Of a stretch of 64,000 bases of DNA, positions 21,444 through 61,026 are shown one piece after another (position 1 is the first letter of the stretch; each line of letters begins with the position of its first letter). Below the pieces are notes generated by a model. The model had not been told where the DNA came from, made no database searches, and saw nothing but the letters and a program-made list of their open reading frames with translations. This DNA comes from an uncultured Eubacterium sp. (GTDB lineage: Bacteria; Bacillota; Clostridia; Lachnospirales; Lachnospiraceae): contig CAMUHY010000005.1 of the NCBI GenBank assembly GCA_947088865.1, positions 1 to 64,000 on the forward strand, written 5' to 3'. The position numbers and the translations under genes were made by a program.

Positions 21444-21791
21444 ATGTTACATCCATCATATTCCGAGTTAATGGAAGTTGTTAATAGTGAGGTTGAGGAG
21501 GGAGAACAGCCAATTGTACAAAGTCGTTATTCAATTGTAAAAGCGACTGCTGCAAGAGCAAAACAGATTATTGATGCGAGATATCTCGAGGAAAAATATG
21601 ATAAGCTTAAATTAGCAGAAAAAGATAGCAAAGACGGAGAACCTAAAAAGACGGCTGAAGATAAGAGAAAAATTGCACTAGGACAGGAATTGATTGATAA
21701 TGCCTCAGGTATTAAGCCATTGTTAGTTGCTGTCAGAGAACTCCATGAAGGTAAGATTAAAATTGTTGGAAATGGTTTAGAAAATATTTAA
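21444..21791 (+). CDS. rpoZ: RNA polymerase omega subunit
   Basis: Contains the omega core: SRYSIVKATAARAKQI followed by the helix with KIALGQELIDNASGIKPLL near residues 78-98. At 115 residues it is longer than the Bacillus protein because of a charged insertion (KLAEKDSKDGEPKKTAEDKRK). The last two codons and stop (ATT TAA) merge with the TTAAC end of a dispersed repeat element. Confidence 0.9.
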   Translation: MLHPSYSELMEVVNSEVEEGEQPIVQSRYSIVKATAARAKQIIDARYLEEKYDKLKLAEKDSKDGEPKKTAEDKRKIALGQELIDNASGIKPLLVAVRELHEGKIKIVGNGLENI

Positions 21792-21948
21792 CCTCATCAA
21801 GGAAGTCTCCCACTTCAATGCTGCAAAGGCATAAGTGGAGGTGGGAACTTGCTTGTTTCAGTGGGAGTATAAGCTCCCACTGAAAAGCTACGATAGTAGC
21901 TATGAGGTTATGAGCAAGTAGCGTAGCGGATTCGAATATCCGTTTAAC
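21788..21948 (+). repeat. Dispersed TTAAC-ended element, full copy A (161 bp)
   Basis: Starts with TTAACCTCATCAAGGAAGTC and ends with TTTAAC. Four hairpins are visible: 21804-21844 region (CCCACTT with AAGTGG), 21857-21882 (TTCAGTGGGAG with CTCCCACTGAA), 21887-21902 (AGCTAC with GTAGCT) and the terminal GGAT / ATCC stem near 21928-21942. AACCTCAT at 21790 also pairs perfectly with ATGAGGTT at 21902, closing the whole structure. It shares its layout with the copies at 24714, 28602, 32081, 41768 and 60982. Confidence 0.9.
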
Positions 21949-21986
21949 TTTCGGGATTATTGATAATACCGCGTAGGTACAATGAT

Positions 21987-22069
21987 GGGGCTGTCGCACT
22001 AAGTAATAAAACACAAAATGTATATACATTTTGCCGTGATTTTTCTTAATGCGATAGTCTCATTTTTTA
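21987..22069 (+). terminator. Long terminator-like hairpin before rimO
   Basis: GGGGCTGTCGCACTAAG (from 21987) pairs imperfectly with CTTAATGCGATAGTCTC (ending 22061), with an inner AAAATGTA / TACATTTT palindrome at 22016-22032, followed by six T residues. It probably separates the gmk-rpoZ transcript from rimO. This hairpin and repeat copy A fill the 327 bp between rpoZ and rimO. Confidence 0.65.
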
Positions 22070-22118
22070 ACAATATAATGGATTGTTTAATGTACAAAAA
22101 TATGTGGAGGAATATATT

Positions 22119-23480
22119 TTGAAAATAATGTTTATTTCGCTGGGGTGCGATAAAAATCTTGTCGATACAGAATATATGCTTGGTATACTGAAAGATAAAG
22201 GTTTTGAATTTACAGATGATGAGATGGAAGCGGAAATTATTGTTGTTAATACGTGTTGTTTTATTCATGATGCTAAGCAGGAAAGCATCAATACCATTAT
22301 AGAGATGGCAGAACATAAACAAGATGCCTGTTGCAAATTACTGATTGTTTCGGGCTGTCTGGCACAGCGGTATCAAGATGAAATTATCAAAGAAATACCA
22401 GAAGTGGACGCTATTATTGGAACATCAAGTTATGATAAGATTGCAGAAGTGATTTTATCAAAGTTGCCTGTTGACAGCCCATTATCAAAAGAGGACGTTT
22501 CATTTAATAAAAACAATGTTTTAGAAAATGTTAATAGACTTGTTGAGGTATCTAGTGATAGAATTATTACAACAGGCGGGTATTATGAATATTTAAAAAT
22601 TGCGGAAGGCTGTGACAAACACTGCACATACTGTATTATTCCTAAGATTAGAGGATGTTATAGAAGTTATAGCATGGAATATCTTATCAAAGAAGCATGG
22701 ATGCTTTCTCAAAATGGCGTTAAGGAACTGATACTTGTAGCTCAGGAAACAACCATGTATGGCGTTGATTTATATGGAAAAAAGTCTTTGTCGAAATTAT
22801 TGTATAAACTTTCTGAAATTGATGGAATAGAATGGATTAGAATATTATATTGTTATCCAGAAGAGATTGACAAAGAATTGATTGCTGCTATTAAAAATAT
22901 ATCTAAAGTAGTGAAATATTTAGATATGCCAATACAACATGCCAGTGATACCATTTTAAAAAAGATGGGGAGACGTACTTCAAAACAAGAATTGATTACT
23001 GTTATTAACCAACTTCGGGAGGAGATTCCAGATATAGCATTGAGAACAACATTGATTACGGGATTTCCGGGAGAGACAAAGGAAGAACATGAAGAACTGC
23101 TTGATTTTGTCAATGAGATGGAATTTGATAGACTGGGTGTTTTTACGTATTCTGCTGAGGAAGATACACCTGCCGCCAAGATGAAAAATCAAATTAGTGA
23201 GTCTGTTAAAGAAAAACGCCGAGATGAAATTATGATGTTGCAGCAAGAAATTTCTTTAGACAAATCATCACAGCTTATTGGCAGTATTCTTTCTTGTATG
23301 GTGGAAGGAAAGATGATAGATGATGATGTCTATGTGGCTCGTTCTTACAAAGATGCACCAAACGTAGATGGATATGTGTTTATTCATACCGATGAAAATC
23401 TGTTGTCAGGCGACATGGTTAAAGTGAAGATTGAAAGTGCATATGAATATGATTTGATGGGAAGCCTGGTTCATGAATAA
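22119..23480 (+). CDS. rimO: Ribosomal protein S12 methylthiotransferase RimO
   Basis: Radical SAM enzyme adding a methylthio group to the conserved Asp of ribosomal protein S12. The N-terminal MTTase domain has three cluster Cys (SLGCDKN, NTCCF, SGCLAQRY). The radical SAM motif is CDKHCTYC, and a TRAM domain closes the protein (~390-453). The TTG at 22119 is favoured because GGAGG lies 8 nt upstream; the ATG at 22128 would have a 17-nt spacer, and the ATG at 22083 has no ribosome site. Followed closely by pgsA. Confidence 0.95.
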   Translation: MKIMFISLGCDKNLVDTEYMLGILKDKGFEFTDDEMEAEIIVVNTCCFIHDAKQESINTIIEMAEHKQDACCKLLIVSGCLAQRYQDEIIKEIPEVDAIIGTSSYDKIAEVILSKLPVDSPLSKEDVSFNKNNVLENVNRLVEVSSDRIITTGGYYEYLKIAEGCDKHCTYCIIPKIRGCYRSYSMEYLIKEAWMLSQNGVKELILVAQETTMYGVDLYGKKSLSKLLYKLSEIDGIEWIRILYCYPEEIDKELIAAIKNISKVVKYLDMPIQHASDTILKKMGRRTSKQELITVINQLREEIPDIALRTTLITGFPGETKEEHEELLDFVNEMEFDRLGVFTYSAEEDTPAAKMKNQISESVKEKRRDEIMMLQQEISLDKSSQLIGSILSCMVEGKMIDDDVYVARSYKDAPNVDGYVFIHTDENLLSGDMVKVKIESAYEYDLMGSLVHE

Positions 23481-23505
23481 TTGTGTAAAATGGAGGTTAG
23501 AGGAT

Positions 23506-24057
23506 ATGAATCTGCCCAATAAACTGACAATACTTAGAATTGTGATAATACCACTTTTTGTTTTATTTTTATATGTCGATATTGGGGATAATATAAACTT
23601 ATATATTGCAGCATTATTATTTATAGCAGCCAGTCTTACGGATTTATTAGATGGAAAGATTGCTCGTAAATATAATCTTGTGACGAATTTTGGCAAGTTT
23701 ATGGACCCTTTGGCTGATAAACTTTTAGTTTGTTCGGCATTGATAGCGCTTGTTGATATAGAAAAACTTGCAGGTTGGATTGTTATTATCATTATTTCAA
23801 GAGATTTTATTATGAATGGACTACGCGTGTTGGCTGCTGATAATGGTATTGTGATAGCCGCTAGTTATTGGGGAAAGCTTAAAACCACCTGTCAGATGAT
23901 AATGATTGTATTATTGATTGTGGATTTGGATATGCCTTATATGTATATAATAAACAACTTTTTTGTGTATGCCGCATTAATTTTAACAATTATTTCTTTA
24001 TTTGATTACATATATAAAAATTATAAAGTACTTATGAAAAGCACCAATAATGTATAA
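23506..24057 (+). CDS. pgsA: CDP-diacylglycerol-glycerol-3-phosphate 3-phosphatidyltransferase
   Basis: Membrane enzyme committing CDP-diacylglycerol to phosphatidylglycerol. The CDP-alcohol phosphotransferase signature D-x2-D-G-x2-A-R-x8-G-x3-D-x3-D spans LLDGKIARKYNLV and GKFMDPLADK. Length 183 aa with about five membrane helices. The ATG at 23506 with GAGG upstream is preferred to the ATG at 23473 that overlaps rimO. Located in the conserved rimO-pgsA-cinA order. Confidence 0.94.
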   Translation: MNLPNKLTILRIVIIPLFVLFLYVDIGDNINLYIAALLFIAASLTDLLDGKIARKYNLVTNFGKFMDPLADKLLVCSALIALVDIEKLAGWIVIIIISRDFIMNGLRVLAADNGIVIAASYWGKLKTTCQMIMIVLLIVDLDMPYMYIINNFFVYAALILTIISLFDYIYKNYKVLMKSTNNV

Positions 24058-24095
24058 AATGGATTTTGTCATTTAAAATAGATAAATAGGGAGGA

Positions 24096-24177
24096 GCATA
24101 CTCAACAGTATTGATTGATGTAAACTATTTATTAAAAATATATAAAATAAAGAAAATGTGTTGAGTGTGCAATCAAT
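24096..24177 (+). promoter_or_regulatory. Competing inverted repeats abutting the cinA start
   Basis: GCATACTCAACA (24096-24107) complements TGTTGAGTGTGC (24159-24170) over 12 positions with one G-T pair. ATTGATT (24110-24116) complements AATCAAT (24171-24177), which touches the ATG at 24178. The arms interleave, so the two stems probably exclude each other. A GGGAGGAG at 24089-24096 is too far from cinA to serve it. Confidence 0.45.
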
Positions 24178-24666
24178 ATGAATAAAGAATTAAATGATAC
24201 ACCAATCGAATATAAAGTAGTCGAAGAATTAAAGAAAAGAAATTTAGTGATAAGTACAGCAGAATCCTGCACAGGCGGGCTGCTGTCTTCTTGTATTGTC
24301 AATGTTGCAGGAGCATCAAGCATTTTTAAAGAAGGGTATATAACATATTGTGACAATGCCAAAATTCATATGTTAGGCGTTCGCAAAGAGACGTTGCAGA
24401 CCTATTATGCAGTAAGCAGTCAGACTGCCATAGAGATGGCAGAGGGGTGTGCAAAAATATCAGGGGCGGATATTGCAGTATCTATTACGGGTGTGGCTGG
24501 TCCGGATATGGAGGACAATAAACCTGTGGGGTTAGTTTATATTGGCTGTTATTATAAACATCATAGTGCTGCGTATGCGTTTCATTTTTTGGGAGACCGT
24601 GCATCGATAAGAAATCAAGCAGTAGAAGCCGCATTTTCTATTATTCTTGATACGATTTGTAAATAA
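24178..24666 (+). CDS. pncC: CinA C-terminal domain protein, nicotinamide-nucleotide amidase type
   Basis: A stand-alone 162-residue CinA C-terminal domain. Members deamidate NMN to nicotinate mononucleotide in pyridine nucleotide recycling. The motif STAESCTGGLLSSCI with the catalytic Ser, and SITGVAGPDM and GLVYIG, are present. The N-terminal MoCF-like domain found in full CinA is missing, as in the E. coli PncC type. It sits just upstream of recA as in many Firmicutes (cinA-recA) but is separated from it by a repeat and an SOS promoter. The ribosome site is weak and may be enclosed in the upstream inverted repeats. Confidence 0.88.
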   Translation: MNKELNDTPIEYKVVEELKKRNLVISTAESCTGGLLSSCIVNVAGASSIFKEGYITYCDNAKIHMLGVRKETLQTYYAVSSQTAIEMAEGCAKISGADIAVSITGVAGPDMEDNKPVGLVYIGCYYKHHSAAYAFHFLGDRASIRNQAVEAAFSIILDTICK

Positions 24667-24713
24667 AGTATTGATAATGTATATAGAACGTGGTATTATT
24701 ATATTATAAGTAT

Positions 24714-24871
24714 TTAACCTTATCAAGGAAGTCCCCCACTTCAATGCTGCAAAGGCATAAGTGGGAGGGACTTGCTTGTTTCAGTGGGAGTATAAGCTCC
24801 CACTGAAAAGCTACAATAGTAGCTAGAGGTTATGAGCAAGCAGCGTAGTGGATTGCGAATATCCGCTTAAC
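24714..24871 (+). repeat. Dispersed TTAAC-ended element, full copy B (158 bp)
   Basis: About 90 percent identical by eye to copy A at 21788, with TTAACC at the left end and CGCTTAAC at the right. All four hairpins are retained, including GCGTAGTGGATTGCGAATATCCGC at the right end. It lies 47 bp after the cinA-like gene and before the recA promoter; with that promoter it accounts for most of the 455 bp between the two genes. Confidence 0.9.
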
Positions 24872-24903
24872 GATGCCTGAGAGATGGATGGTTGTTAGAA
24901 ATG

Positions 24904-24974
24904 CGAACAAATATTCGTTTTTCTATTGACATTTTATTTCTATTGTTGTATGATAAGAAACGAACAGATGTTCA
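24904..24974 (+). promoter_or_regulatory. recA promoter with two LexA (SOS) boxes
   Basis: TTGACA (24926-24931), 17-nt spacer, TATGAT (24949-24954). A LexA-type box CGAACAGATGTTCA at 24961-24974 covers the expected transcription start and fits the Firmicute consensus CGAAC-N4-GTTC. A weaker match CGAACAAATATTCG lies at 24904-24917, upstream of the -35. Confidence 0.85.
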
Positions 24975-25090
24975 TAAATATTTATGAAATGCAATATTAA
25001 AAAATTAAATAGTATTATCAATCTTGCATTTGTGCGTTGTTGGGTACAAGATTGTTTTAAGATTATTGTAAGAGTAATCCTTTATTAAAC

Positions 25091-25115
25091 TATAAAAAGC
25101 AGCGCAGAAATGAGG
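25091..25115 (+). repeat. 25-nt leader block shared with spoIIIAF
   Basis: TATAAAAAGCAGCGCAGAAA then TGAGG; differs at two positions from 56759-56783. It contains the recA ribosome site. Confidence 0.55.
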
Positions 25116-25121
25116 TTAAAA

Positions 25122-26222
25122 ATGATTAGTGATGAGAAATTAAAAGCGTTGGATGCGGCTCTTGCCAATATAGAGAAGCAGTTTGGAAAAGGCTCTGTTA
25201 TGAAGCTGGGAGAATCCAATGTCAATTTTAATGTAGAGACGATTCCAACAGGTTCATTGAGCTTAGATGTCGCATTAGGTCTTGGTGGTGTTCCAAGAGG
25301 ACGTGTTGTTGAAATATATGGTCCAGAATCGAGTGGTAAGACAACCGTAGCACTTCATATGGTAGCAGAGGTTCAAAGACAGGGAGGCATTGCTGGATTT
25401 ATTGATGCAGAACATGCCCTAGACCCTGTATATGCTAAAAATATAGGGGTTGATATTGATAATTTATATATATCACAGCCAGACAGCGGAGAACAGGCAT
25501 TAGAAATTACAGAGACAATGGTACGTTCAGGTGCTGTGGATATTATTATTGTGGATTCCGTTGCAGCTCTTGTGCCAAAAGCTGAAATTGATGGAGATAT
25601 GGGGGACTCTCATGTTGGACTTCAGGCAAGATTGATGTCTCAGGCTTTAAGAAAGTTGACGCCTGTTGTCAGCAAAAATGACTGTATCGTAATTTTTATC
25701 AATCAGCTTCGAGAAAAGGTTGGCGTTATGTTTGGCAATCCAGAGACAACGACTGGCGGACGTGCTTTAAAGTTTTATGCATCTGTTCGTATGGATGTAA
25801 GAAGAATTGAGACATTAAAGCAAGGCGGCGAAGTGATAGGCAATCGAACAAGGGTGAAGGTGGTTAAAAACAAGATTGCTCCTCCATTTAAAGAAGCAGA
25901 ATTTGATATTATGTTTGGAAAGGGAATTTCCAGTGAGGGCGATGTTCTTGATTTGGGCGTCAATGTTGGAATTGTACAAAAAAGCGGAGCATGGTTTTCA
26001 TATAATGGAGAAAAAATTGGACAAGGCAGAGAAAATGCTAAGCAATTTTTGATGGAACATAGAGACATTTATAATGAGATAGATAGTAAAGTTCGTGAAC
26101 ATTACTTTAATAAAGAAGAAAAAAAGGAAGACCCTTCACAAGATACCGCACTTCCAGCATCAGAAGATGAAGGTGATGCAAAGACAGCAAAGAAAAGGTC
26201 GGCTAAGGCAAAGGAAGAATAA
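25122..26222 (+). CDS. recA: Recombinase RecA
   Basis: Strand-exchange ATPase for homologous recombination and co-protease of LexA. Walker A is GPESSGKTT, Walker B lies in [12 protein letters not shown], and the DNA-binding loops include the [20 protein letters not shown] segment. The protein is 366 aa with a Lys/Glu-rich tail. The ATG at 25122 follows GAGG; the earlier ATG at 25110 overlaps that site. Upstream LexA boxes indicate SOS control. A long leader (~160 nt) precedes it, carrying a 25-nt block also seen before spoIIIAF. Confidence 0.98.
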
Positions 26223-26230
26223 GGGCAAGT

Positions 26231-26872
26231 ATGGATTATATTGTTACTTCTATTGCGGATATAAAGCATTCTTATTCCAATAAAAAAAAGCTGGTTTATA
26301 TTAATTATGAACCAGCTTTTGCGCTTTATAATAAAGAATTAAAAACATATAACGTAAAAGAAAATGAGGCGATTTCAGAACAAAATTATAGTGATATTGT
26401 TCAGATGTTATCAAAAAGAGCTACGGTTCGAGCAATGAATCTCTTAAAAACGAAAGATTATACCCAAAAAGAACTGATAAATAAATTAGAGTTGTCCTAT
26501 TATCCAAAGAAAAGTATTGATGATGCACTAACATATGTAGAGCGTTATGGATATATCAATGATAAGCGTTATGTAGAAAATTATATAGCATTTAAAGCGA
26601 GTAAAAAGAGCAGAAAACAGATAGAACAGTTGTTAAAAGAAAAAGGGATTGATTCTGATATTATTGAGAGTGCATTAGAAGCTTATTATGGCGATTCGTC
26701 GGAATGTGAAGAGAGTCTTATTTTAAGTATGCTCAAAAAGAAATATGGAAATATTCCTATGGAAGAATTAGATTATAAACAAAAACAAAAGATGATGGCA
26801 TACATGTATAGGAAGGGATTTAGCATGGATACAATTCGTAAGGCTATTGATGTATTTCTTGACAATGTATGA
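26231..26872 (+). CDS. recX: Regulatory protein RecX
   Basis: Modulates RecA filaments. Three-helix RecX repeats are seen in RAMNLLKTKDYTQKELINKL, DALTYVERYGYINDKRYVEN and QIEQLLKEKGIDSDII. The protein is 213 aa, with an ~60-residue N-terminal extension typical of Firmicute RecX. It begins 9 bp after recA, so it should be on the SOS transcript. An 11-bp hairpin with flanking A and T tracts lies within codons ~18-30. Confidence 0.9.
   Translation: MDYIVTSIADIKHSYSNKKKLVYINYEPAFALYNKELKTYNVKENEAISEQNYSDIVQMLSKRATVRAMNLLKTKDYTQKELINKLELSYYPKKSIDDALTYVERYGYINDKRYVENYIAFKASKKSRKQIEQLLKEKGIDSDIIESALEAYYGDSSECEESLILSMLKKKYGNIPMEELDYKQKQKMMAYMYRKGFSMDTIRKAIDVFLDNV
26286..26320. terminator. Terminator-like hairpin inside the start of recX
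   Basis: AAAAGCTGGTT (26286-26296) pairs perfectly with AACCAGCTTTT (26310-26320). On the plus strand only four T residues follow; on the minus strand eight follow. It could attenuate recA read-through into recX or stop antisense transcription. Confidence 0.4.
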
Positions 26873-26937
26873 AATTCAGTATAAAATTAGAGCATTGTAT
26901 GTTTTGTACAATGAAAACTAAATAAGGAGGTGCTCCT

Positions 26938-28482
26938 GTGCTAGTTGTTATCGCTATAATTGCTACATTGATTATAGTCGCACCTATTACTTGGCTTATT
27001 GCATCCAATGCCCAGAAAAAGTCTTATGAAACGACTGTTGGCAACGCTAAAGATAAGGCAAGAGAAATAATAGATGAAGCATTAAAAACGGCTGAAGCAA
27101 AGAAAAAAGAATCTTTGTTAGAAATTAAGGAAGAATCTTTAAGGACAAAGAATGAGCTTGACAAGGAAACGAAAGAAAGACGTGCTGAATTACAAAAGTA
27201 TGAAAGACGTGTGCTTTCTAAAGAAGAATCACTTGACAAGAAGATAGAGGCTGTTGAAAAACGCGACACCAATCTTACCAGGAAAGAGGAAGAGCTTGGT
27301 AAAAGAAAGCAAGAAGTTGATGAACTTGAACAGAAGAGACAACAGGAACTCGAAAGAATCTCAGGATTAACCTCCGAACAGGCAAAGGAATATCTATTAA
27401 AGACTGTTGAAGATGAAGTAAAACATGAAACTGCTGTTATGATTAAGGCCTATGAGAGTAGAGCCAAAGAGGAAGCTGAAAAGAAGGCGAGAGACTGTAT
27501 TGTCTCTGCTATTCAAAGGTGTTCGGCTGACCATGTTGCAGAAATGACGATTTCTGTGGTACAGCTTCCAAATGATGAGATGAAAGGTAGAATTATAGGC
27601 AGAGAAGGTCGTAATATTCGTACATTAGAGACGCTTACAGGTGTCGAATTGATTATTGATGATACACCAGATGCTGTTGTTTTATCTGGATTTGACCCAG
27701 TTAGAAGAGAAGTTGCCAGAATTGCCCTTGAAAAGCTTATTCTTGATGGACGTATTCATCCTGCCAGAATCGAAGAGATGGTTGAAAAGGCTCAAAGGGA
27801 AGTGGAGACGGTTATTAAGGAAGAAGGCGAAGCAGCTACTCTTGAAGTTGGCGTACATGGTATTCATCCAGAGTTAGTGAAGCTTCTTGGCAGAATGTAT
27901 TTTAGGACAAGCTATGGTCAAAACGTCTTGAAACATTCCATTGAAGTTGCTCAGTTAGCAGGATTGCTGGCTGAAGAGGTGGGCTGTGATGTCAAGACTG
28001 CCAAAAGAGCAGGATTGTTACATGATATTGGCAAGTCCATTGACAGAGAAATGGAAGGTACACATGTACAGATAGGTGTTGATTTATGTCGAAGATATAA
28101 AGAATCACCTGTTGTTATTAACGCAGTTGAGGCTCATCATGGAGATGTTGAGCCAGAGTCGCTTATTGCATGTCTTGTACAAGCCGCTGATACAATATCA
28201 GCAGCAAGACCAGGTGCAAGAAGGGAAACATTAGAAACATATACAAACAGACTTAAACAATTAGAAGATATTACAAACTCCTTTAAAGGAGTTGAAAAAT
28301 CATTTGCCATTCAGGCGGGTAGAGAGATTCGAGTTATGGTTGTTCCTGAAGTTGTCAGTGATTCAGATATGATACTTATGGCAAGGGATATTTCTAAACA
28401 GATTGAAGACCAGATGGAATATCCAGGACAGATTAAGATTAGTGTTATTCGTGAGTCGAGAGTTGTCGATTACGCCAAGTAG
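26938..28482 (+). CDS. rny: Ribonuclease Y
   Basis: Membrane-anchored endoribonuclease that initiates mRNA decay. An N-terminal membrane helix ([20 protein letters not shown]) is followed by a long coiled coil (~25-190), a KH RNA-binding domain with [15 protein letters not shown] (~215-235) and an HD domain with metal-binding [10 protein letters not shown] (~360). Length 514 aa is typical. It starts with GTG at 26938, with GGAGG 7 nt upstream. Encoded right after recX, a common arrangement in clostridia. Confidence 0.97.
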
Positions 28483-28501
28483 AATAATTAGAGTTCATAG
28501 G

Positions 28502-28541
28502 GACTTGCAAGTTGTGTTATACACATTTGCAAGTCTTTTTT
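28502..28541 (+). terminator. Terminator after rny
   Basis: Perfect 9-bp stem GACTTGCAA / TTGCAAGTC (28502-28510, 28527-28535) followed by six T residues. Confidence 0.9.
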
Positions 28542-28601
28542 AGTATTGCAAAATAAAAATGAAAGGAGTATAATATTTCAGGTTTATATATTATGTATAT
28601 T

Positions 28602-28650
28602 TTAACTTCATCAAGGAAGTTCCTCACTTCAATGTCATAGAGGTATATAA
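28602..28650 (+). repeat. Dispersed element, truncated left-end copy C
   Basis: TTAACTTCATCAAGGAAGTTCC matches the left end of copies A and B, continuing with CACTTCAATG; similarity fades after about 28650 and no right end is visible. It lies in the leader of the aminotransferase gene. Confidence 0.7.
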
Positions 28651-30025: not shown

Positions 30026-30039
30026 TCAGGTGAGTGCGT

Positions 30040-41656: not shown

Positions 41657-41767
41657 AAAAGGATATATTTATAAATAAAAAGTTGTTGCTGGTAAAGCAA
41701 TAATAGAATAACCCTATATAAGGTTAATATATATTAGAACAATCAAGAGGCTGTTGCAAAAAGAATT

Positions 41768-41829
41768 TTAACCTCATTAAGGAAGTCCCCCACTTCAATG
41801 CTGCAAAGGCATAAGTGGGGGACTTCCTT
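41768..41829 (+). repeat. Dispersed element, left-end copy E forming a perfect 17-bp hairpin
   Basis: TTAACCTCATTAAGGAAGTCCC matches the left end of copies A and B. AAGGAAGTCCCCCACTT (41779-41795) and its exact complement (41813-41829) form a 17-bp stem. There is no right end. The hairpin sits between the convergent ABC permease and chemoreceptor genes and touches the chemoreceptor stop codon, so it probably works as a two-way terminator. Confidence 0.85.
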
Positions 41830-53478: not shown

Positions 53479-53508
53479 AATATATGTGAAAAATTTTATA
53501 TTGGAATA

Positions 53509-53563: not shown

Positions 53564-54466
53564 ATGGACAATATTGCACAAATATTACGTATATTACCAG
53601 AGAGAGTAAAATGTGAAGTGAACGATGTTATTAAGCGAAACGGTCTTGCTTACAGCAAGCTGACAGAAATACATTTGAGAATCAATCAGAGCGTGATAAT
53701 AAAATATGAATATGGAAAAGAGTATATTATTGGAAATATTCATATTACGTCAGAAGATATTAATTACTGTCTGCAAATGATAACAAAATATTCAATATAT
53801 GCCTATCAGGATAGCATTCGGATGGGATTTGTCACCGTGAAGGGCGGACACCGAGTCGGTGTTATGGGGCAGGCAATTGTTGAAAATGGTACGATTTCAG
53901 GACAGAAGAATATAACATTTGTCAATATAAGGGTGGCGCATCAAGTGCTTGGCTGTGCAAGGAATATGATACCTTTTATATGTGATGGCAGCGTGCATAA
54001 CACACTGATTATCTCTCCGCCGAACTGTGGAAAAACAACGTTGCTTCGAGATATTATAAGGAATATTTCAAATGGAATAGACTGTATGCCAAGAAAAGTG
54101 GCATTGATTGATGAACGTTCAGAAATAGCAGCAAGTTTTGAGGGGATTCCACAAAATGATGTGGGACAAAGAACCGATGTTTTAGACCTTGCTCCAAAAA
54201 GTGAAGGTATGATACTGGCATTAAGGGCGATGTCACCAGAAGTCATTGCTATTGATGAGTTGGGAGGCGTGCAGGATATCGAAGCCGTAAAACAAGTAAT
54301 TCACTGTGGGTGTAAAGTGATTGCAACAGTACATGGGTATGATTTGCAGGATTGCTGTAACAGAAAAGAGCTTAAAGAAATGATAGGACACAATGGGTTT
54401 ACAAAGATCATTGTTTTGTCTGGGAAAAAAGGTGTGGGAACAATAGAAAGTATGGTGAATACATAA
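53564..54466 (+). CDS. spoIIIAA: Stage III sporulation protein AA (secretion-type ATPase)
   Basis: Cytoplasmic P-loop ATPase of the SpoIIIA-SpoIIQ channel linking mother cell and forespore. The N-terminus MDNIAQILRILPERVK aligns with Bacillus SpoIIIAA, KGGHRVGVMG precedes Walker A ISPPNCGKTTLLRD, and Walker B is in SPEVIAIDELGG. Length 300 aa. There is no ribosome site before the ATG, which immediately follows a 16-bp inverted repeat. Confidence 0.93.
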   Translation: MDNIAQILRILPERVKCEVNDVIKRNGLAYSKLTEIHLRINQSVIIKYEYGKEYIIGNIHITSEDINYCLQMITKYSIYAYQDSIRMGFVTVKGGHRVGVMGQAIVENGTISGQKNITFVNIRVAHQVLGCARNMIPFICDGSVHNTLIISPPNCGKTTLLRDIIRNISNGIDCMPRKVALIDERSEIAASFEGIPQNDVGQRTDVLDLAPKSEGMILALRAMSPEVIAIDELGGVQDIEAVKQVIHCGCKVIATVHGYDLQDCCNRKELKEMIGHNGFTKIIVLSGKKGVGTIESMVNT

Positions 54467-54991
54467 ATGATTATTAGAATAGTTGGAGCAGTTATTATTT
54501 TATTGACGGCAGTGACAGCCGGAATTTGTCTTAGCTATGTGGCTAAGACAAGAATTAAGCGATTATGTGCAATGGTCTCTTCGCTTTATATTTTATCGGG
54601 AGATATACGTTATGGAATGACAAGCCTTCCTGCTGCATGTATGAATATTGCAAGAGGAAGCCATAACGATTATTTGAAAAATTTTTATCAAAGGCTTTCC
54701 ATTGATTTAAATAAAGACGAATTTATTGTTTTTTCTGAATTGTGGAAAAGGCTTATTTATACCTATGTAAAAGAAATTTATTTGACGGAAAGTGACTGTG
54801 AAGTTTTATGTGAAGTTGGCGAATTGCCGTTGCATCTGGATAAAGATATGCAGATTAAACATATAGAAAATATTTGCTGTCGTTTAAATGATATTATTGC
54901 TGAAGCCAAATCAGGTGTTAATAACAAATGCAGAATTTATCAATGTACCTCAATAGCAGCAGGGATAATTATTGTGATACTTTTATTATAA
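54467..54991 (+). CDS. spoIIIAB: Stage III sporulation protein AB
   Basis: A 174-residue protein with N- and C-terminal membrane helices (IRIVGAVIILLTAVTAGICLSYV and CTSIAAGIIIVILLL) around a helical GspF-like core (SSLYILSGDIRYGMTSLPAA). Part of the SpoIIIA channel. The ATG follows the spoIIIAA stop directly, implying translational coupling. Confidence 0.9.
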   Translation: MIIRIVGAVIILLTAVTAGICLSYVAKTRIKRLCAMVSSLYILSGDIRYGMTSLPAACMNIARGSHNDYLKNFYQRLSIDLNKDEFIVFSELWKRLIYTYVKEIYLTESDCEVLCEVGELPLHLDKDMQIKHIENICCRLNDIIAEAKSGVNNKCRIYQCTSIAAGIIIVILLL

Positions 54992-55010
54992 TACGGATTG
55001 GAGGCTTGAG

Positions 55011-55205
55011 ATGGAAGTGAGTATTATATTTAAAATAGCGGCGGTGGGTATACTTGTGTCGGTGTTAAGTCAAGTGCTAAAGCATAGCGGAAGAGAAGAA
55101 CATGCCTTTCTTACAAGCCTTGCAGGGCTGTTATTGGTATTATACTGGATTGTCCCATATATTGTTGAGCTGTTTGAAACGATGAAAAAAATGTTTCAAT
55201 TATAG
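55011..55205 (+). CDS. spoIIIAC: Stage III sporulation protein AC
   Basis: A 64-residue protein of two membrane helices with conserved LSQVLKHSGREEHAFLTSLAGL. Expected to form a membrane complex with SpoIIIAD. GGAGG precedes the ATG; 19 bp after spoIIIAB. Confidence 0.93.
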   Translation: MEVSIIFKIAAVGILVSVLSQVLKHSGREEHAFLTSLAGLLLVLYWIVPYIVELFETMKKMFQL

Positions 55206-55255
55206 CATAACAAGACAAAATTGTTCAGTTTTAAGACAGTAAGGCAGGTGGAATT

Positions 55256-56683
55256 TTGATAGAAATTATTAAAATTGCGGCATTGGCAATCAGTGTTGTC
55301 TATCTGATTTCCATTTTAAAAAGTGCAGGAAGTCAGTTGCATATCGTTCTTATTATGACTTTTTCCGTGCTGGTTATCTATATTTTATCAGGGCGTATAT
55401 CCGGAATTATTGCACAGCTCACAAGAATGCAGGCAATTGTAAATTATGGACAGGATTACATAGCGCTTTTAATTAAAATTATTGGTATTACCTATGTGAC
55501 GCAGTTTGCGTCGGATTTATGCAAAGACAGCGGATACAATGCGCTTGCAGGGCAGATTGAGCTGTTTTGCAAAATTACAATAGCGGCAATCAGTTTTCCT
55601 GTGATATGTAGTCTTTTTGATATGACCCTAATGACCGTAAGCGCTGCAACAACAGAAATTGAGGATTTAGACTTTTCAGAGATTGACCGCATACTTGAAA
55701 ATAGTAATTACAATGGATTTTCATTTAAAAACATTGTAAAGGATATATGCAATAATGATTTTGAGGCGCAAGGATTGATAAGACAGGCTATCCAATCCAT
55801 TTTTAATGAAATTATAAGCAATCAATCCTATATATTAAATATCTTATTTCTTGCTGTTTTTTCAGCTTCACTAAAGATTCTTTTACCTGATAACAACAAT
55901 AAACAGGTAAGCGATATCTCACTTTTTATCGTGTATGCCATAATGATAATTACCATCTATTCTATTTTTAAGTCCGCTGTATCAATCAGTTACAAAGCAA
56001 TTGATTCGACCGTTAATTTGTATATGGCGATTATTCCTGTTTTACTGCCGCTGATTGCGGCAGTTACAGGCAGTATCAGCAGCGGCATTTATTATGAAGT
56101 AGTAGTTATGATGGTTACGGCAGTCAATGTTTTATTTAAAGATATTTTAATTAATGTGGTGAGAGCTACTTATATGATATCAATGGTAAATATACTTACA
56201 GAGGGCGGACGATTTACAAAATTGGGAGAACTTTTGACGCGGGCTGTAAAATTTTGCTGTAAATTGGCATTGACGGTATTTTCAGGTTTGAGTTGTGTCA
56301 AGACCATTTTAGGTCAATCGACAGATGCAGTTAAGAAAAATTTGTTTTATAAATCCGCCAAATTAATTCCAGCGGTTGGCGATTCAATAGAAGCGGTTTC
56401 TCAGACGGTGGTATCAGCAGGAAATGTTATAAAAAATGCAGTGGGCATAGCTGGAATCCTTGTTCTTATCATAACCGTCAGCGCACCGCTTCTTCAGTTG
56501 ATATCCATTACTTGTATGTTAAAAATATTGGCGGCTGTAATTGAACCATTGGCAGACAAGCAATTTATTTCAATTATAGATACATCTGGAAATATATTAG
56601 GGTTGTTGTGTTTGATTGTCACCGTTCAATGTAGTTTGTTTATTATGGTGACGGCTATTATGATATGTTTATTAAAGCCATAA
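55256..56683 (+). CDS. spoIIIAD-spoIIIAE: Fused stage III sporulation proteins AD and AE
   Basis: One uninterrupted 475-codon frame. Residues ~1-128 match SpoIIIAD: four hydrophobic helices (IIKIAALAISVVYLISILKS through CKITIAAISFPVICSLFDM). Residues ~135-475 match mature SpoIIIAE: an amphipathic start (DLDFSEIDRILENSNYNGF) and about seven helices including the conserved AIDSTVNLYMAIIPVLLPL. The usual spoIIIAD stop and spoIIIAE start and signal peptide are missing. TTG start at 55256 with AGGTGG upstream. Both domains belong to the same membrane channel, so a fusion could be functional; a base error that removed a stop cannot be excluded but would not explain the missing signal peptide. Confidence 0.85.
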   Translation: MIEIIKIAALAISVVYLISILKSAGSQLHIVLIMTFSVLVIYILSGRISGIIAQLTRMQAIVNYGQDYIALLIKIIGITYVTQFASDLCKDSGYNALAGQIELFCKITIAAISFPVICSLFDMTLMTVSAATTEIEDLDFSEIDRILENSNYNGFSFKNIVKDICNNDFEAQGLIRQAIQSIFNEIISNQSYILNILFLAVFSASLKILLPDNNNKQVSDISLFIVYAIMIITIYSIFKSAVSISYKAIDSTVNLYMAIIPVLLPLIAAVTGSISSGIYYEVVVMMVTAVNVLFKDILINVVRATYMISMVNILTEGGRFTKLGELLTRAVKFCCKLALTVFSGLSCVKTILGQSTDAVKKNLFYKSAKLIPAVGDSIEAVSQTVVSAGNVIKNAVGIAGILVLIITVSAPLLQLISITCMLKILAAVIEPLADKQFISIIDTSGNILGLLCLIVTVQCSLFIMVTAIMICLLKP

Positions 56684-56758
56684 TGACGTCATATGCAATT
56701 GTTATGATTGTTGTCTGTGATTGTTAGGCACAAAAGGATTAAAAAATTGAGCTGTTCA

Positions 56759-56783
56759 TATAAAAAGCAGCACAGAAACGAGG
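56759..56783 (+). repeat. 25-nt leader block shared with recA
   Basis: TATAAAAAGCAGCACAGAAA then CGAGG; 23 of 25 positions equal the block at 25091-25115 in the recA leader. Includes the likely ribosome site GAGG of spoIIIAF. Confidence 0.55.
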
Positions 56784-56789
56784 GTTTTT

Positions 56790-57353
56790 ATGGAATGGGT
56801 AAAACGGATATTTGTCACAGGTATTATGACAGAATTAATACTGCATTTATTGCCCGATAAAAAATATGATAAATATGTGCGATTAATTTGCGGGGTAATA
56901 TTAACGATGGTATGTATTTCGCCCATATTGTCATTTTTTAATAATAAAAGTAATATAAAAAATTATATCAATATCTTTGAAAAAATTGGACAAAAGTATG
57001 ATTATCAAACCATGATAGGAAATATGCAGGGGGAAGACCAGTCCTATTACATACAAAATTACATAGATGTTAATTCCAAGTATATTAATGAGTTGGTTTT
57101 AGAGGAAGGCTTGAATCCAGTAGACTGTAAAATTGTTTTGGATATGGATGAAAAAAGCAAAACGTATGGAAGTATAGAAACGATTGCCCTAACGGTTGCG
57201 GATGGGAAAAATTCATGCTATGAAAAAAACGAGGGACGCATTGTCTATCAAGGCGGCGCCAAACAGTACAGTGAGGAGCTTTTGGCGCTTATAGAAACAA
57301 TTTGTGTAACTTATGAAATGGATAAGGATAGTATTCATGTGAAAATTACATAA
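56790..57353 (+). CDS. spoIIIAF: Stage III sporulation protein AF
   Basis: A 187-residue protein with two N-terminal membrane helices (WVKRIFVTGIMTELILHLL and LICGVILTMVCISPILSFF) and a C-terminal ring-building-type domain (~95-187). The family landmark LLPDKKYDKYVRLICG is clear. It lies 106 bp after the AD-AE fusion, an unusual gap within a spoIIIA operon. Confidence 0.9.
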   Translation: MEWVKRIFVTGIMTELILHLLPDKKYDKYVRLICGVILTMVCISPILSFFNNKSNIKNYINIFEKIGQKYDYQTMIGNMQGEDQSYYIQNYIDVNSKYINELVLEEGLNPVDCKIVLDMDEKSKTYGSIETIALTVADGKNSCYEKNEGRIVYQGGAKQYSEELLALIETICVTYEMDKDSIHVKIT

Positions 57354-57385
57354 ATTCATAGGCTGAGCAAGAATGGGGGACTTTT

Positions 57386-57823
57386 ATGAATAATAAAAAT
57401 GATTTCATAGAAAAAATATTGAATAAAAAGGGCAAGGAAAAAATATTAATAGTATTATTAATAGGGATTTTATTAATGGTTATCGCAATACCCGTAAAAG
57501 ATGAATCGAAAAATAACAATTCCTTCGTCGGTTTACAAGATACAAATAATGATATGTATACGAACTGGCTGAAGGATTACAATTCTGATATTACATCGTA
57601 CAGCACATTTATTGAACAAAAATTGAAAAATATTTTATCAAAAGTTGAAGGTGTTGGCGAGGTTAATGTAATGGTCAAAATTAATGAAGACGAGTCAATT
57701 GAGGGGGTGATAGTAGTTGCAGGAGGAGGTGGTAACGGAACGGTGTCAGCCAGTATTACATCTGCTATTGAAGCTTTGCTTGGAATACCAGCCCATAAGA
57801 TTAAAGTATTAAAAATGGTATAA
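57386..57823 (+). CDS. spoIIIAG: Stage III sporulation protein AG, short form
   Basis: One membrane helix (ILIVLLIGILLMVIAIPV, ~20-37) and a ring-building domain (~75-145) with YSTFIEQKLKNILSKVEGVG and the family signature EGVIVVAGGGGNGTVSASIT and ALLGIPAHKIKVLKM. Only 145 residues versus ~200-230 in Bacillus. The long insertion that lies before EGV(I/L)VVA in Bacillus is reduced to about six residues (INEDES). Function in the forespore-side ring is otherwise expected. Confidence 0.9.
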   Translation: MNNKNDFIEKILNKKGKEKILIVLLIGILLMVIAIPVKDESKNNNSFVGLQDTNNDMYTNWLKDYNSDITSYSTFIEQKLKNILSKVEGVGEVNVMVKINEDESIEGVIVVAGGGGNGTVSASITSAIEALLGIPAHKIKVLKMV

Positions 57824-57858
57824 CAATAAGCGTTTGTTGCGCAGAAATGGAGTAGTCA

Positions 57859-58503
57859 TTGAAAAAAATTAAAAAAAATCAAATTATCATAACAGCGTTG
57901 GCAATTATGATTGCCGTTGCAGGATATATTAATTATACAGGAAGTCTTGGCGATATTATATCAATTAAAAATAAAAAAGAAGATGCCCCTGTTACATCAG
58001 AATCCCTAGAAGAACCTGGAACAGTTGTTCTCACAGCAGGCGATAACGTGACAGATGGAGAAAAGTCGGACGGTGAAAATAATGAAAATTCAGGAAATTC
58101 AGATACAATCAGCGTCAATGGTGATGTGACAAGTGAAAAACCTGTTGTTGCGACATCGGTTATATCCGAAGCAAAGTTAAACCGTGAGCAAATGAGGGCA
58201 AAAAATAAAGAGATGCTGTTAGATATTATTAACAGTACAGAGTTAAATGAAGCAGCAAAGGCAGACGCAGTTGCACAGATAACGCAAATTAGTGAAAATT
58301 CACAGAAAGAAACAGCAGCAGAGCTGCTTCTTGAAGCCAAAGGATTAGGAAATTCCGTTGTGTCTATACAGGATGGAGAAGTGGATGTTGTCATTAACGC
58401 TGCTGGTATATCCGATACGCAAAGAGCGCAGATAGAAGATATTATTAAAAGAAAAACAGGAGTAACTGCGGATAAGATTACAATAAATGTTTGCAATAAC
58501 TAA
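57859..58503 (+). CDS. spoIIIAH: Stage III sporulation protein AH
   Basis: Mother-cell partner of SpoIIQ in the engulfment channel. N-terminal membrane helix (QIIITALAIMIAVAGYINY), an acidic Ser/Asn-rich linker (~30-95) and a C-terminal YscJ/FliF-like domain (~105-214) with REQMRAKNKEMLLDIINS and KRKTGVTADKITI. TTG start at 57859 with GGAG upstream; 214 aa. Confidence 0.9.
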   Translation: MKKIKKNQIIITALAIMIAVAGYINYTGSLGDIISIKNKKEDAPVTSESLEEPGTVVLTAGDNVTDGEKSDGENNENSGNSDTISVNGDVTSEKPVVATSVISEAKLNREQMRAKNKEMLLDIINSTELNEAAKADAVAQITQISENSQKETAAELLLEAKGLGNSVVSIQDGEVDVVINAAGISDTQRAQIEDIIKRKTGVTADKITINVCNN

Positions 58504-58595
58504 AAAAATCGATTATAATATATTCATTAACGCGAATGGCTCTAAAATTGTCTGGTTGCAGCCATGCGTGTGAAATATGACGCAGGAGGTCCGCA

Positions 58596-58985
58596 ATGAC
58601 TAAAGATTTTGAAAGCAAAGGAAATAGTTACTCTATACACGAGAGAGTTAATATTGGTGAGGTTCGTGTCGCAGATGAAGTTGTTGCTATTATTGCAGGA
58701 TTAGCTGCCACTGAAGTAGATGGTGTTGAATCAATGGCTGGCAATATAACCAATGAGCTTGTCAGCAAGTTAGGAATGAAAAATTTATCAAAAGGCGTTA
58801 AGGTGTACGTCAATGATAGAACCGTTGCCGTTGATTTAGCATTGAATATCAAATATGGTTTTGAGATTCCTAAAGTTTCTGCCAATGTGCAGGAAAAAGT
58901 AAAATCAGCAATTGAGACAATGACAGGTTTTGAAGTGACATCTGTTAATATTAAGATTGCCGGCGTGAACATTGAAGCTGAGTAA
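58596..58985 (+). CDS. Asp23/Gls24 family envelope stress protein
   Basis: A 129-residue Asp23 domain: GEVRVADEVVAIIAGLAATEVDGV near residues 19-42 and VNIKIAGVNIE at the end. Family members coat the inner membrane face and are linked to envelope stress. In Clostridia it regularly precedes nusB, as here. AGGAGG upstream. Confidence 0.92.
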   Translation: MTKDFESKGNSYSIHERVNIGEVRVADEVVAIIAGLAATEVDGVESMAGNITNELVSKLGMKNLSKGVKVYVNDRTVAVDLALNIKYGFEIPKVSANVQEKVKSAIETMTGFEVTSVNIKIAGVNIEAE

Positions 58986-59063
58986 GTAGCATAAGATTAA
59001 ATATTGAAAAGTCAAATAATTGGACTTTGTTGCTCTTACAAAAATATATTGCATTGTAGCTAG

Positions 59064-59096
59064 CGCCAGACTGAGGTTTCTCGGTCTGGCGATTTT
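59064..59096 (+). terminator. Terminator between asp23 and nusB
   Basis: CGCCAGACTGAG (59064-59075) pairs with CTCGGTCTGGCG (59080-59091) with one G-T pair, then ATTTT. Confidence 0.8.
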
Positions 59097-59122
59097 ACAC
59101 ATGTGCAGAAAGGTTGTAATCC

Positions 59123-59521
59123 ATGACAAGAACACAGATAAGAGAACATATCTTTATTATTTTATTTGGAGTAGAGTTTCATAAGGCAGAGGAACTAGAG
59201 GAACATATTGCTCTTTATATAGATAATATTGGCGCGATATCAAAAAAAGATTTAGATTATATTACAAAAAAATCAAGAGCGATTATTTCTAAAATAGAAG
59301 AAATTGATAATATGATAAATGAAACCTCAAATGGGTGGCCAACCAGCAGACTTGGCAAGGCAGAGCTTACGATTATGAGACTTGCCATCTTTGAGATTAA
59401 ATATGATGATGATATTCCAAATGGCGTTGCCATCAATGAAGCGGTTGAACTAGCTAAAAAATATGGCGCGGACAGCGCTTCTTCATTTATCAATGGCGTG
59501 CTGGCAAAGTTTATAAAGTAG
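59123..59521 (+). CDS. nusB: Transcription antitermination factor NusB
   Basis: Binds boxA RNA with NusE for rRNA antitermination. [18 protein letters not shown] at the start, [19 protein letters not shown] and the final [23 protein letters not shown] are diagnostic. Length 132 aa. It is 14 bp before xseA. Confidence 0.95.
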
Positions 59522-59535
59522 TAGAGGTTTTTTAT

Positions 59536-60750
59536 ATGGCAGGTTCCTTTACGGTTTCACAGATAAATAAATATATTAAAAATATGTTTCTTCAAGATTT
59601 TGTGTTAAATAAAGTTTCAGTTACCGGAGAATTATCAAACTGTAAATATCACCCTTCTGGACATTTATTTTTTACGCTAAAAGATGCAAATGGAACGTTG
59701 CCTGCCATTATGTATGCTAGTCAGGTGAAAAATTTAAATATACAGCTCAAAGATGGCATGAAAGTAATGGTACATGGGCGAATTGATATATTTGAGCGTG
59801 ATGGAAAGTATCAGCTTTATGCAAATCGTATAGAGATGAATGGTATAGGGGAATTATATAGACAGTTTGAAGCGTTAAAAGTACAGTTTGAGCAGATGGG
59901 ATATTTTAGCCCGCAATATAAACGTCCTATCCCTAAGTATTCAGGTAAAGTTGGTATTGTGACAGCTTCGAGCGGAGCGGCGATTCAGGATATTATCAAT
60001 ATTTCTCACAGGCGTAATCCATATGTTTCATTGATTCTTTATCCTGCGCTTGTTCAGGGGAGTGGAGCGGCTAAAAGTATTGTAAAAGGAATACAAAAAT
60101 TAGATTTGATGGAATTGGATGTTATTATAATAGGACGAGGCGGCGGTTCAATAGAAGATTTATGGGCATTTAATGAAGAAATAGTTGCAGAGGCAATCTT
60201 TAATTCCAAGACGCCAATTATTTCTGCTGTTGGGCATGAGACGGATTTTACAATAGCTGATTTTGTAGCAGATTTAAGAGCGCCTACGCCATCTGCTGCG
60301 GCTGAGTTGGCAGTAAGTGATATTCGTGTGGTAGAAGCAGATTTACAGAGATATTTGGATGCGTTAAAAAATGCCATGTATCAAAGAATAGAAAAATATT
60401 ATACCCGTCTTGAAGCCATATCAACCAAGTTGAAATATTTAAATCCACAGGCAATGGTTGATGAAAAAAGACATTATTTGTGTCTAATTCGAGAACAACT
60501 GGATAGGCTTATCACTTCGTACCTCGCAAAAAAAAGACATCAGCTAGAGCTTTATGCTTTTCGGTTGCAGGGTGTTTCGCCTTTGGAAAAATTGGGACAA
60601 GGATATTCTTATACAGAAACCACAGAGGGAACGATGGTAAAATCTGTAAAAGATATAAAAGTCTCGGATTGTGTCAATATTTATGTTAAAGATGGTTATT
60701 TTACAGCTACGATTCATAAAATCACAGAGAATGGAGGGAACAGTGGCTAA
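59536..60750 (+). CDS. xseA: Exodeoxyribonuclease VII large subunit
   Basis: Single-strand exonuclease. N-terminal OB-fold (VTGELSNCKYHPSGHLFFTLKD), catalytic region with GIVTASSGAAIQDII, GRGGGSIEDLWAFN and SAVGHETDFTIADFVADLRAPTP, and a coiled-coil C-terminus. Length 404 aa. Its end overlaps the xseB start. Confidence 0.96.
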   Translation: MAGSFTVSQINKYIKNMFLQDFVLNKVSVTGELSNCKYHPSGHLFFTLKDANGTLPAIMYASQVKNLNIQLKDGMKVMVHGRIDIFERDGKYQLYANRIEMNGIGELYRQFEALKVQFEQMGYFSPQYKRPIPKYSGKVGIVTASSGAAIQDIINISHRRNPYVSLILYPALVQGSGAAKSIVKGIQKLDLMELDVIIIGRGGGSIEDLWAFNEEIVAEAIFNSKTPIISAVGHETDFTIADFVADLRAPTPSAAAELAVSDIRVVEADLQRYLDALKNAMYQRIEKYYTRLEAISTKLKYLNPQAMVDEKRHYLCLIREQLDRLITSYLAKKRHQLELYAFRLQGVSPLEKLGQGYSYTETTEGTMVKSVKDIKVSDCVNIYVKDGYFTATIHKITENGGNSG

Positions 60751-60943
60751 AGGTTTTGATATAGAAGAGTCTTTTCAATTGCTTGATGATATTGTACAAA
60801 AATTAGAAGGTGGCGATTTGCCTATGAATGAAGCGTTGAAATTATATAAAGACGGTGTGAAATTAGTCGAAAAATGTAATATACAGATGGATAAAGTGGA
60901 AAAGCAAATTGTTGTTTTGGATGAAGAAGAGACATCATTGTAA
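60743..60943 (+). CDS. xseB: Exodeoxyribonuclease VII small subunit
   Basis: A 66-residue helical partner of XseA: FDIEESFQLLDDIVQKLEGGDLPMNEALKLYKDGVKLV is the family pattern. GTG at 60743 with GGAGG 5 nt upstream is chosen; the ATG at 60731 contains that ribosome site. It overlaps xseA by 8 nt. Confidence 0.92.
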   Translation: MAKGFDIEESFQLLDDIVQKLEGGDLPMNEALKLYKDGVKLVEKCNIQMDKVEKQIVVLDEEETSL

Positions 60944-60981
60944 CTTATCGGATAATTTTAAAGGTGCGTTTTGCAGCAATT

Positions 60982-61026
60982 TTAACTTCATCAAGCAGCA
61001 TAGCGGATTGCGAATATCCGCTTAAC
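60982..61026 (+). repeat. Dispersed element, internally deleted copy F (45 bp)
   Basis: TTAACTTCATCAAG (left end) joins directly to CAGCATAGCGGATTGCGAAT and then ATCCGCTTAAC (right end). All middle hairpins are lost while both TTAAC ends and the terminal hairpin remain. Confidence 0.85.

Follow-up and report, generated by a model that had tools for sequence, protein, structure and literature searches.

What are the short repeats that lie between the genes of a 64,000-nt stretch of DNA from an uncultured Eubacterium sp. (contig CAMUHY010000005.1, positions 1 to 64,000; hereafter the window), and how might they have reached their places? The window comes from a genome of 3.29 Mb in 48 contigs (G000), which belongs to the GTDB genus of Lachnospira pectinoschiza and Lachnospira multipara. 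A preliminary description of the window had listed six copies of a multi-hairpin element with TTAAC at both ends and had compared their architecture to that of IS200/IS605 transposons. We consider, with a probability of about 0.85, that these repeats are non-autonomous elements of the IS200/IS605 kind. They have the appearance of small passengers of a transposon that is intact in a sister species, and the choice of a landing site appears to depend on pairing between that site and an internal guide.

The six copies were all found again at the positions listed and are real repeats belonging to a large family. A scan of the window with the left-end motif of the preliminary description (up to two mismatches) returned exactly six matches on the + strand, five without mismatch and one with a single mismatch, and one match with two mismatches on the - strand; by chance, 0.35 matches would be expected in a window on the two strands together, as estimated from 60 Markov-1 resamplings. 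A covariance model built from 33 sequences, including three window copies (those at 21788, 24714 and 32081), places the same six loci at the top, with E values from 1.9e-46 to 3.3e-6. These three copies have both ends, including the right-end hairpin followed by TTAAC that had been ascribed to complete copies, but the right end is missing from the copies at 28602 and 41768, and the copy at 60982 is a terminal-only form of 45 nt in which the left end is joined to the right-end hairpin. A T precedes the TTAAC of the left end in 6/6 window copies.

Genome searches, which had been proposed as a check, revealed a multi-copy family in G000 and its relatives and not a single locus. Using one copy as a blastn query, at least 47 matches were obtained in G000 (40 of 214 candidates scored): 36 span roughly 150 or more of the 166 bases, four are partial and seven are short, the latter corresponding mostly to a palindrome (P3, see below) on the other strand. 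The model R1 is a sequence-driven finder only, as its structure is poor owing to misaligned distant copies from G027; it gave at least 129 matches in G000 at E <= 0.001 (135 of 1312 candidates scored), a count that includes fragments and reverse-strand matches to the palindrome. The 30 best G000 copies have their ends in common, with few base changes, and differ in their flanks. T precedes TTAAC in 29/30 of these aligned copies, and the identical orientation noted earlier holds within the window but not in the genome, where 11 of the 30 are on the + strand and 19 on the - strand. A sister family of copies of about 164 nt is found in congeners, with 46 matches in L. pectinoschiza M83 (G008), 31 in L. 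multipara ATCC 19207 (G003) and seven in L. multipara LB2003 (G001); the copies read in these three genomes are nearly identical.

The limits of the mobile unit were read from occupied and empty sites. Flanks are 83-99% identical between L. multipara and L. pectinoschiza. Among at least 56 full-length copies in the fetched stretches, ten have both flanks paired in stretches of the other species: three face an empty site, four rows represent two shared insertions viewed from both sides, at one site the other species has a terminal-only form, and two are ambiguous. The three empty sites (L. multipara ATCC 19207 vs L. pectinoschiza M83) read TTGAA, TTGAA and TTGGA, each joined directly to the right flank, whereas their occupied counterparts read TTGAA, then CGCAGTG...CTTTAC, then the right flank, without duplication. 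A copy of 94 nt lies within a tnpA open reading frame (ORF) of G134 (TTTGAA/CGCAGAG...CTTTAC/TGTGGT, slashes marking the junctions), three homologues of which read TTTGAA/TGTGGT. The last pair is of the TTTAA type, with G354 occupied and G447 empty (TTTTTAA/TGGATT), between what we take, from our own reading, to be cobalamin genes; the occupied site is one T shorter in the T-run and this copy ends with CTTGAA. Insertion thus occurred directly 3' of TTGAA at four sites and of TTTAA at one site, and each empty site of the five pairs retains one target pentanucleotide.

Target duplication is absent from all five comparisons, and the IS200/IS605 family is not known to produce it. Terminal inverted repeats are absent too, subterminal hairpins being present at both ends. 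Neither of the two features that had been named beforehand as contrary to an IS200/IS605 architecture was therefore found, and the empty sites support this reading. The target is TTNAA, lies outside the element and is not duplicated. The mobile unit starts with the C that follows TTNAA and ends with TTNAC, the final base of which differs in some copies. By analogy, TTTAA would be the target of the window copies, and the element would run from the following C to the right TTAAC, because empty sites of other copies hold TTNAA once and lack the right TTNAC. The two TTAAC sequences of the preliminary description are both present, but the left one would belong mostly to the flanking target TTTAA and the right one to the element. 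In the sister families, the left and right pentanucleotides differ (TTGAA...TTTAC). One locus (L142) carries a full copy ending with CTTTAC that is immediately followed by a second left end, which starts with CGCAGTG and lacks TTGAA; this right end-left end (RE-LE) tandem joint is the junction that a circle would have.

The complete element folds as a cloverleaf in which an outer stem, P1, encloses three hairpins (P2 to P4), the right-end hairpin and TTNAC coming after it. The DNA fold of the copy at 24714 has a z of -9.3, and 0/200 shuffles are as good. P1 includes the target: TTGAAC pairs with GTTCA, and TTTAAC with GTTA. Over 98 distinct elements, target base 3 is complementary to the facing guide base in 94 (G:C in 63 and T:A in 31, the other four being T:C). 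The search for these elements demanded AA[CT] on the left and GTT in the guide, so that three pairs were met by construction (C6 excepted where T was allowed) and only the outer pairs and target base 3, which was not used in the selection, are informative; 69/219 hits were left out for want of a left end. When one element was kept per P1 combination (28 elements of 140-172 nt with a score >= 3.5, L175 excluded), 27/28 are complementary at target base 3 and 0/10000 permutations are as good; as the 28 elements represent two types only, 27/28 is not a count of independent guide-target switches. The minimum-energy fold contains at least three of the four target-guide pairs in 28/28 elements, three of the four being favoured by the search pattern. 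Positions 7-10 of P1 each display at least three Watson-Crick pair types (36 P1 combinations) with base changes on both strands, although the left ends were selected by P1 score and the outer-pair counts consequently lean towards pairing. P1 pairs were counted by register, as the alignment A3 offsets the guide by one column between the two types. The complementarity of P1 to TTNAA would most simply reflect target recognition, since TTNAA is flanking DNA. At the right end, GAAG or GTAG is found just 5' of CGGA..TCCG in 19/28 sequences; the IS605 ends of Lachnospira genomes consist of GAAG, a hairpin and TAGTTCAC.

A tnpA gene flanked by the same ends had been suggested as a further check. None was found in G000, but L. 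multipara ATCC 19207 harbors an insertion sequence (IS; L092) that encodes TnpA (135 aa from ATG, no stop) and TnpB and shows the left-end layout of the element after TTTAA. Its domains are Y1_Tnp (E 5e-43) and TnpB, and its TnpA matches IS200-like transposases of the PDB, including that of ISHp608. Its left end reads TTTAAC ACGCCGTG AGCAAGAAATCCCCC. Three relatives (L377, L378 and L379) start with TTTAAC...AGCAAGAA.TC and share this layout, the left end of L377 being TTTAACCTTATTAAGCAAGAAGTC compared with TTTAACCTTATCAAGGAAGTC in the window. The motif TT[TG]AAC..AGCAAGAA.TC occurs six times in a 5.3-Mb sample (both strands): four sites precede Y1 tnpA ORFs of one protein cluster (4/5 members), one is in a Y1-remnant locus and one lies elsewhere. 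The sample is enriched, as about 0.56 of the 5.3 Mb consists of IS loci, almost all of them retrieved on account of Y1 or TnpB. The bulged form of P2, CTTCAA..TAAG, recurs in the right-end hairpin of L092, which was recognized through it; hairpins of this type outside intact copies number ten in a 2.1-Mb control (both strands). In a related genus, strong Y1 genes (E <= 1e-20) are present in 10/11 element-rich genomes (at least eight matches, flank hits included) vs 5/30 others (Fisher 2.5e-5), and in 7/7 vs 2/13 among 20 good genomes (4.6e-4), both cut-offs being hand-set on the two tables and incomplete genomes being able to inflate the contrast. Taken as a whole, the element behaves like an IS200/IS605 passenger by its target, its subterminal hairpins and its guide, and its right-end hairpin differs from that of the coding relative; the part played by TnpA is putative, and the L. 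multipara enzyme may be the one that moves it.

Besides these hand-set cut-offs, several observations weigh against such an origin. G000 contains four Y1 loci, 0/4 of which are bounded by element ends, and the matching TnpA cluster includes none of the three Y1 proteins recovered out of these four (L031, L033 and L034; L032, a near-copy of L033, was not part of this test). L. pectinoschiza M83, at least 32 of whose matches are full-length, has no Y1_Tnp match; nor was one found in G404, G001 or G355 (one contig). The assembly of M83 may have a gap, because contig C11 begins inside a tnpB. The element has a right-end hairpin that differs both from its own left hairpin and from the one at the right end of the L. 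multipara IS. When the left end of that IS is folded, its target is unpaired and the P1 pairs begin just inside it, and no P1 was seen in L377. Copies truncated at the 5' end exist, as do copies truncated at the 3' end. Lastly, a single-strand mechanism is expected to produce a lagging-strand orientation bias, and orientation relative to GC skew is weakly biased (20/30 and 30/48, p ~0.1 each, non-significant per genome).

Other IS loci were inspected. Among 26 Y1 loci in eight further genomes, three locus rows (two places) carry a true copy, one of which is inserted inside tnpA. The IS loci of the genus gave a single right-end match (L038), a terminal-only copy behind the own right end of a tnpB. 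An apparent linkage to tnpB on contig C2 of G000, with a right-end match about 170 bp behind the gene, was rejected, as it corresponds to an independent terminal-only copy and this tnpB has its own right end. A Y1 cluster with the left end TTTAGGA.. (L310 group) was examined as a partner and rejected. L032 and L033 (G000:C1:280387 and C18:33437) represent a different IS605 element, present twice, and here too the left end comes after TTGAA; their tnpB frame is open and their tnpA frame contains one TAG in both copies.

For a non-autonomous IS200/IS605-type element, movement can be pictured as follows. A Y1 (HUH) TnpA supplied in trans would bind the folded single strand and would cut it 3' of TTNAA at the left end and after TTNAC at the right end. 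The excised element would leave as a single-strand circle, to be inserted into single-stranded DNA 3' of another TTNAA. The target would be read by the guide (GTTA or GTTCA) that P1 carries in its 3' arm, the TTTAA and TTGAA families using matching guides, and this pairing would probably act during cleavage. As a candidate transposase is present in a sister species, mobilization in trans is directly testable. The cloverleaf might in addition act as an RNA, which we regard as unlikely: the element would be an omega-RNA-like unit devoid of tnpB, produced by read-through transcription from the upstream gene, and a TnpB acting in trans would take the right flank as guide and TTNAA as motif. This TnpB would cut empty donor sites, so that the element would be kept and copied. 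The sense orientation behind genes and the conserved fold fit such a role, in which the element would be a small passenger that depends on TnpA and TnpB alike.

The genomic setting bears on the alternatives. No element match lies inside a long ORF (0/78, fetched stretches). Of the copies flanked by a gene on either side (67), 50 have an upstream gene in the same orientation, compared with 260/501 intergenic TTGAA sites taken as background (p = 4e-4); terminator-like hairpins stand before 12 of these copies and before 21/501 background sites (p = 1e-4). Such biases might come from a preference for single-stranded target beside hairpins, from selection or from a requirement for transcription. 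The 25 gene families that recur most often near the repeats are unannotated and look by eye like ordinary insertion hosts. The intergenic location, the GTAG/GAAG found 5' of the right-end hairpin in 19/28 sequences and the lack of any coding copy bounded by both ends would also be expected of a palindromic repeat of the repetitive extragenic palindromic (REP) type, spread by a domesticated transposase (TnpA_REP, or REP-associated tyrosine transposase, RAYT) that recognizes GTAG and the right-end hairpin. This is nevertheless quite improbable, as the left end is defined, has its own target and guide and is common to a tnpA+tnpB IS, and as a complete unit is inserted precisely while paired inverted hairpins are absent. 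In addition, no RAYT-like gene was recognized by eye among the 25 unannotated families, and, at the IS loci inspected, no repeat was found to flank a RAYT gene.

The same biases in orientation and terminator proximity, together with the conserved cloverleaf and the changes on both strands of P1, could point to a host RNA or a regulatory element of 3' untranslated regions whose mobility is incidental. This is very unlikely: target recognition accounts for the pairing, terminal-only and half copies persist, empty sites lie beside genes and no Rfam match within the window reaches the gathering score, the weaker hits (E of 10 or less) staying far below such scores (the match to Clostridiales-1 was rejected as due to chance). 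Were the element instead a structured RNA copied by reverse transcription, in the manner of short interspersed elements or by reverse splicing, one could understand its strong fold, its sense orientation after genes and terminator-like hairpins (50/67 vs 260/501 and 12/67 vs 21/501), and its 5'-truncated copies. However, no RVT_1 match was found in L. pectinoschiza M83 or G015 (11/13 element-bearing genomes have one), 3'-truncated copies also exist, and the RE-LE tandem junction and the left end in common with an IS indicate a DNA mechanism, which makes such copying highly improbable. The probability is almost negligible that the repeats are ordinary miniature inverted-repeat elements mobilized by a DDE transposase, with TTAAC as a duplicated 5-bp target, as its presence at both ends in the window's genome would suggest; this is contradicted by the five occupied/empty comparisons, in which empty sites carry TTNAA once and lack the right TTNAC, by the TTGAA families, whose ends differ, and by the absence of terminal inverted repeats. 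Integron attC sites, group I/II introns and IS110 were also considered and set aside, since neither the base that follows TTNAA nor the terminal TTNAC agrees with them.

Out of 392 genomes sampled across the order, 10 contain the right-end pattern, against 0 throughout for the same pattern reversed as a control; another family of the order (G027) has it too. In the named collection it is present in at least 113 stretches, 80 of which are listed; the hosts among the matches listed include Lachnospira, Acetitomaculum, Blautia, Hespellia, Roseburia, Eubacterium, uncultured Lachnospiraceae and others, some metagenome-assembled genomes being assigned only to Eubacteriales or Bacillota. The plasmid collection gave no element match and viral contigs gave one. 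Ten unannotated 'Bacteriophage sp.' records from human feces (H1-H10) in the phage collection contain partial or complete elements, which may result from carriage by phages or from host contamination. Among the titles listed by a literature search for the host name together with repeats or mobile elements, none concerns an element of this kind. These elements constitute an apparently undescribed, abundant class of mobile DNA in gut Lachnospiraceae.

Several peculiar copies or related sequences were observed. Three G000 copies (L014, L020 and L023) have an inverted P3 loop, GTATAAGC vs GCTTATAC, as expected from template switching within a palindrome. Another repeat-like stretch (~1501-1526 of L044 and L045, from G008 and G003) contains a hairpin, TCAGTCGGAGTATAAGCTCCGACTGA, with the loop GTATAAGC as in P3; long G+C-rich hairpins lie behind it and it is present in both species. 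Tandem 71-nt units made of a right-end hairpin and a new long P1 stem (L166, L175, L176, L183 and L188; two units in G197 and about four in G293) directly follow a gene end, the last codons lying within the stem. A 29-nt right-end-like sequence is repeated in G015 (ATGAGCAAGGAGCGCAGCGGATTGCGAAT in L048, and other places), and L048, the sole G015 copy read, lacks the usual right hairpin arm. In G008, an element lies at identical coordinates on two contigs (C2:31670-31832 and C6:31670-31832), possibly because of a duplicated stretch or an assembly oddity.

The features of the window are listed below. The TAA of the target of copy 1 doubles as the stop codon of an Rpb6/rpoZ-like ORF (21444-21791), and copy 4 lies directly 3' of a hairpin and T-tract judged by eye to resemble an intrinsic terminator. 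At the recA loci of congeners, a right-end-like match (up to four substitutions) was found in 0/18 fetched, some of these loci being cut by contig ends. A leader motif, AAAAAGCAGC(G/A)CAGAAA(T/C)GAGG, is common to 25094-25115 and 56762-56783 of the window, close to the start codon of recA and to that of a second gene, and similar matches recur in congeners.

Coordinates of the six copies in the window, with the predicted parts of copy 2
Feature	Position	Strand	Basis
Copy 1, including its TTTAA	21787..21948	+	covariance model
Putative target pentanucleotide TTTAA beside copy 2, outside the mobile unit	24713..24717	+	boundary by analogy with empty sites
Copy 2, complete, located between cinA and recA	24718..24871	+	blastn, covariance model
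Copy 2, P1 5' arm (target and first element bases)	24715..24721	+	fold
Copy 2, P2, left near-terminal hairpin	24724..24778	+	fold
Copy 2, P3 hairpin	24779..24808	+	fold
Copy 2, P4 hairpin	24809..24824	+	fold
Copy 2, P1 3' arm with guide GGTTA, pairing with TAACC across target and left end	24826..24832	+	fold, pair counts
Copy 2, right-end hairpin	24847..24867	+	fold, right-end pattern
Copy 2, right terminal TTAAC, part of the element	24867..24871	+	aligned copies, empty sites
Copy 3, left end only, decayed or truncated	28601..28650	+	motif scan, covariance model
Copy 4, without P3	32080..32209	+	covariance model
Copy 5, left end and P2 only	41767..41829	+	covariance model
Copy 6, terminal-only, core lost between CAAG repeats	60981..61026	+	motif scan

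How do these elements compare with known systems? The GTAG REP sequences and REPINs are intergenic, occur in high copy number, have a tetranucleotide 5' of a hairpin and are presumed to be mobilized in trans by Y1 proteins. The elements resemble them in the first three features and in their presumed mobilization, but are complete units with two distinct ends, a target and precise insertion; a term search of PMC3733652 gave no occurrence of Clostridi-, Eubacterium, Lachnospir-, Roseburia or Firmicutes.

With members of the IS200/IS605 family (IS608, ISDra2 and L092), they share a short target 3' of which they insert, hairpins in subterminal position and a guide that interacts with the target, and with L092, L377, L378 and L379 the left-end layout TTTAA...AGCAAGAA. 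Unlike these, they have no genes, and their right hairpin differs from that of L092. In IS200/IS605 a short guide interacts with the target (PMC6006769); it lies just 5' of the hairpin foot, whereas in the element it lies behind the left hairpins. Reprogramming of the IS608 target has been reported (PMC5934647), and the elements provide evolution's counterpart to it, a natural series in which guide and target have changed together (TTTAA with GTTA, TTGAA with GTTCA).

The nearest kind described is that of the palindrome-associated transposable elements (PATEs) of the archaeon Haloquadratum walsbyi. These lack inverted terminal repeats and do not duplicate their target; a short targeting sequence lies outside them, they have near-terminal palindromes and IS605-related ends, and they are too short to code; core deletion has generated terminal-only forms of 52 bp, and strain-specific insertions are found despite mostly broken tnpA genes (PMC3119063). 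The elements have in common with them the lack of terminal inverted repeats and target duplication, the near-terminal palindromes, the outside target, a length too small for a gene and the terminal-only forms. As regards the PATE feature of palindromes alike at both ends and like those of IS605, P2 resembles the right hairpin of the L. multipara IS, and the two hairpins of the element differ from each other. Unlike PATEs, the elements have bacterial hosts, are about 159 nt long, fold into three hairpins within an enclosing stem of which the target is part, carry a guide in the 3' arm of this stem and exist with two target types and matching guides. They extend the idea of PATEs from an archaeon to common gut bacteria, and what is new is the cloverleaf, the internal guide and the two natural target types.

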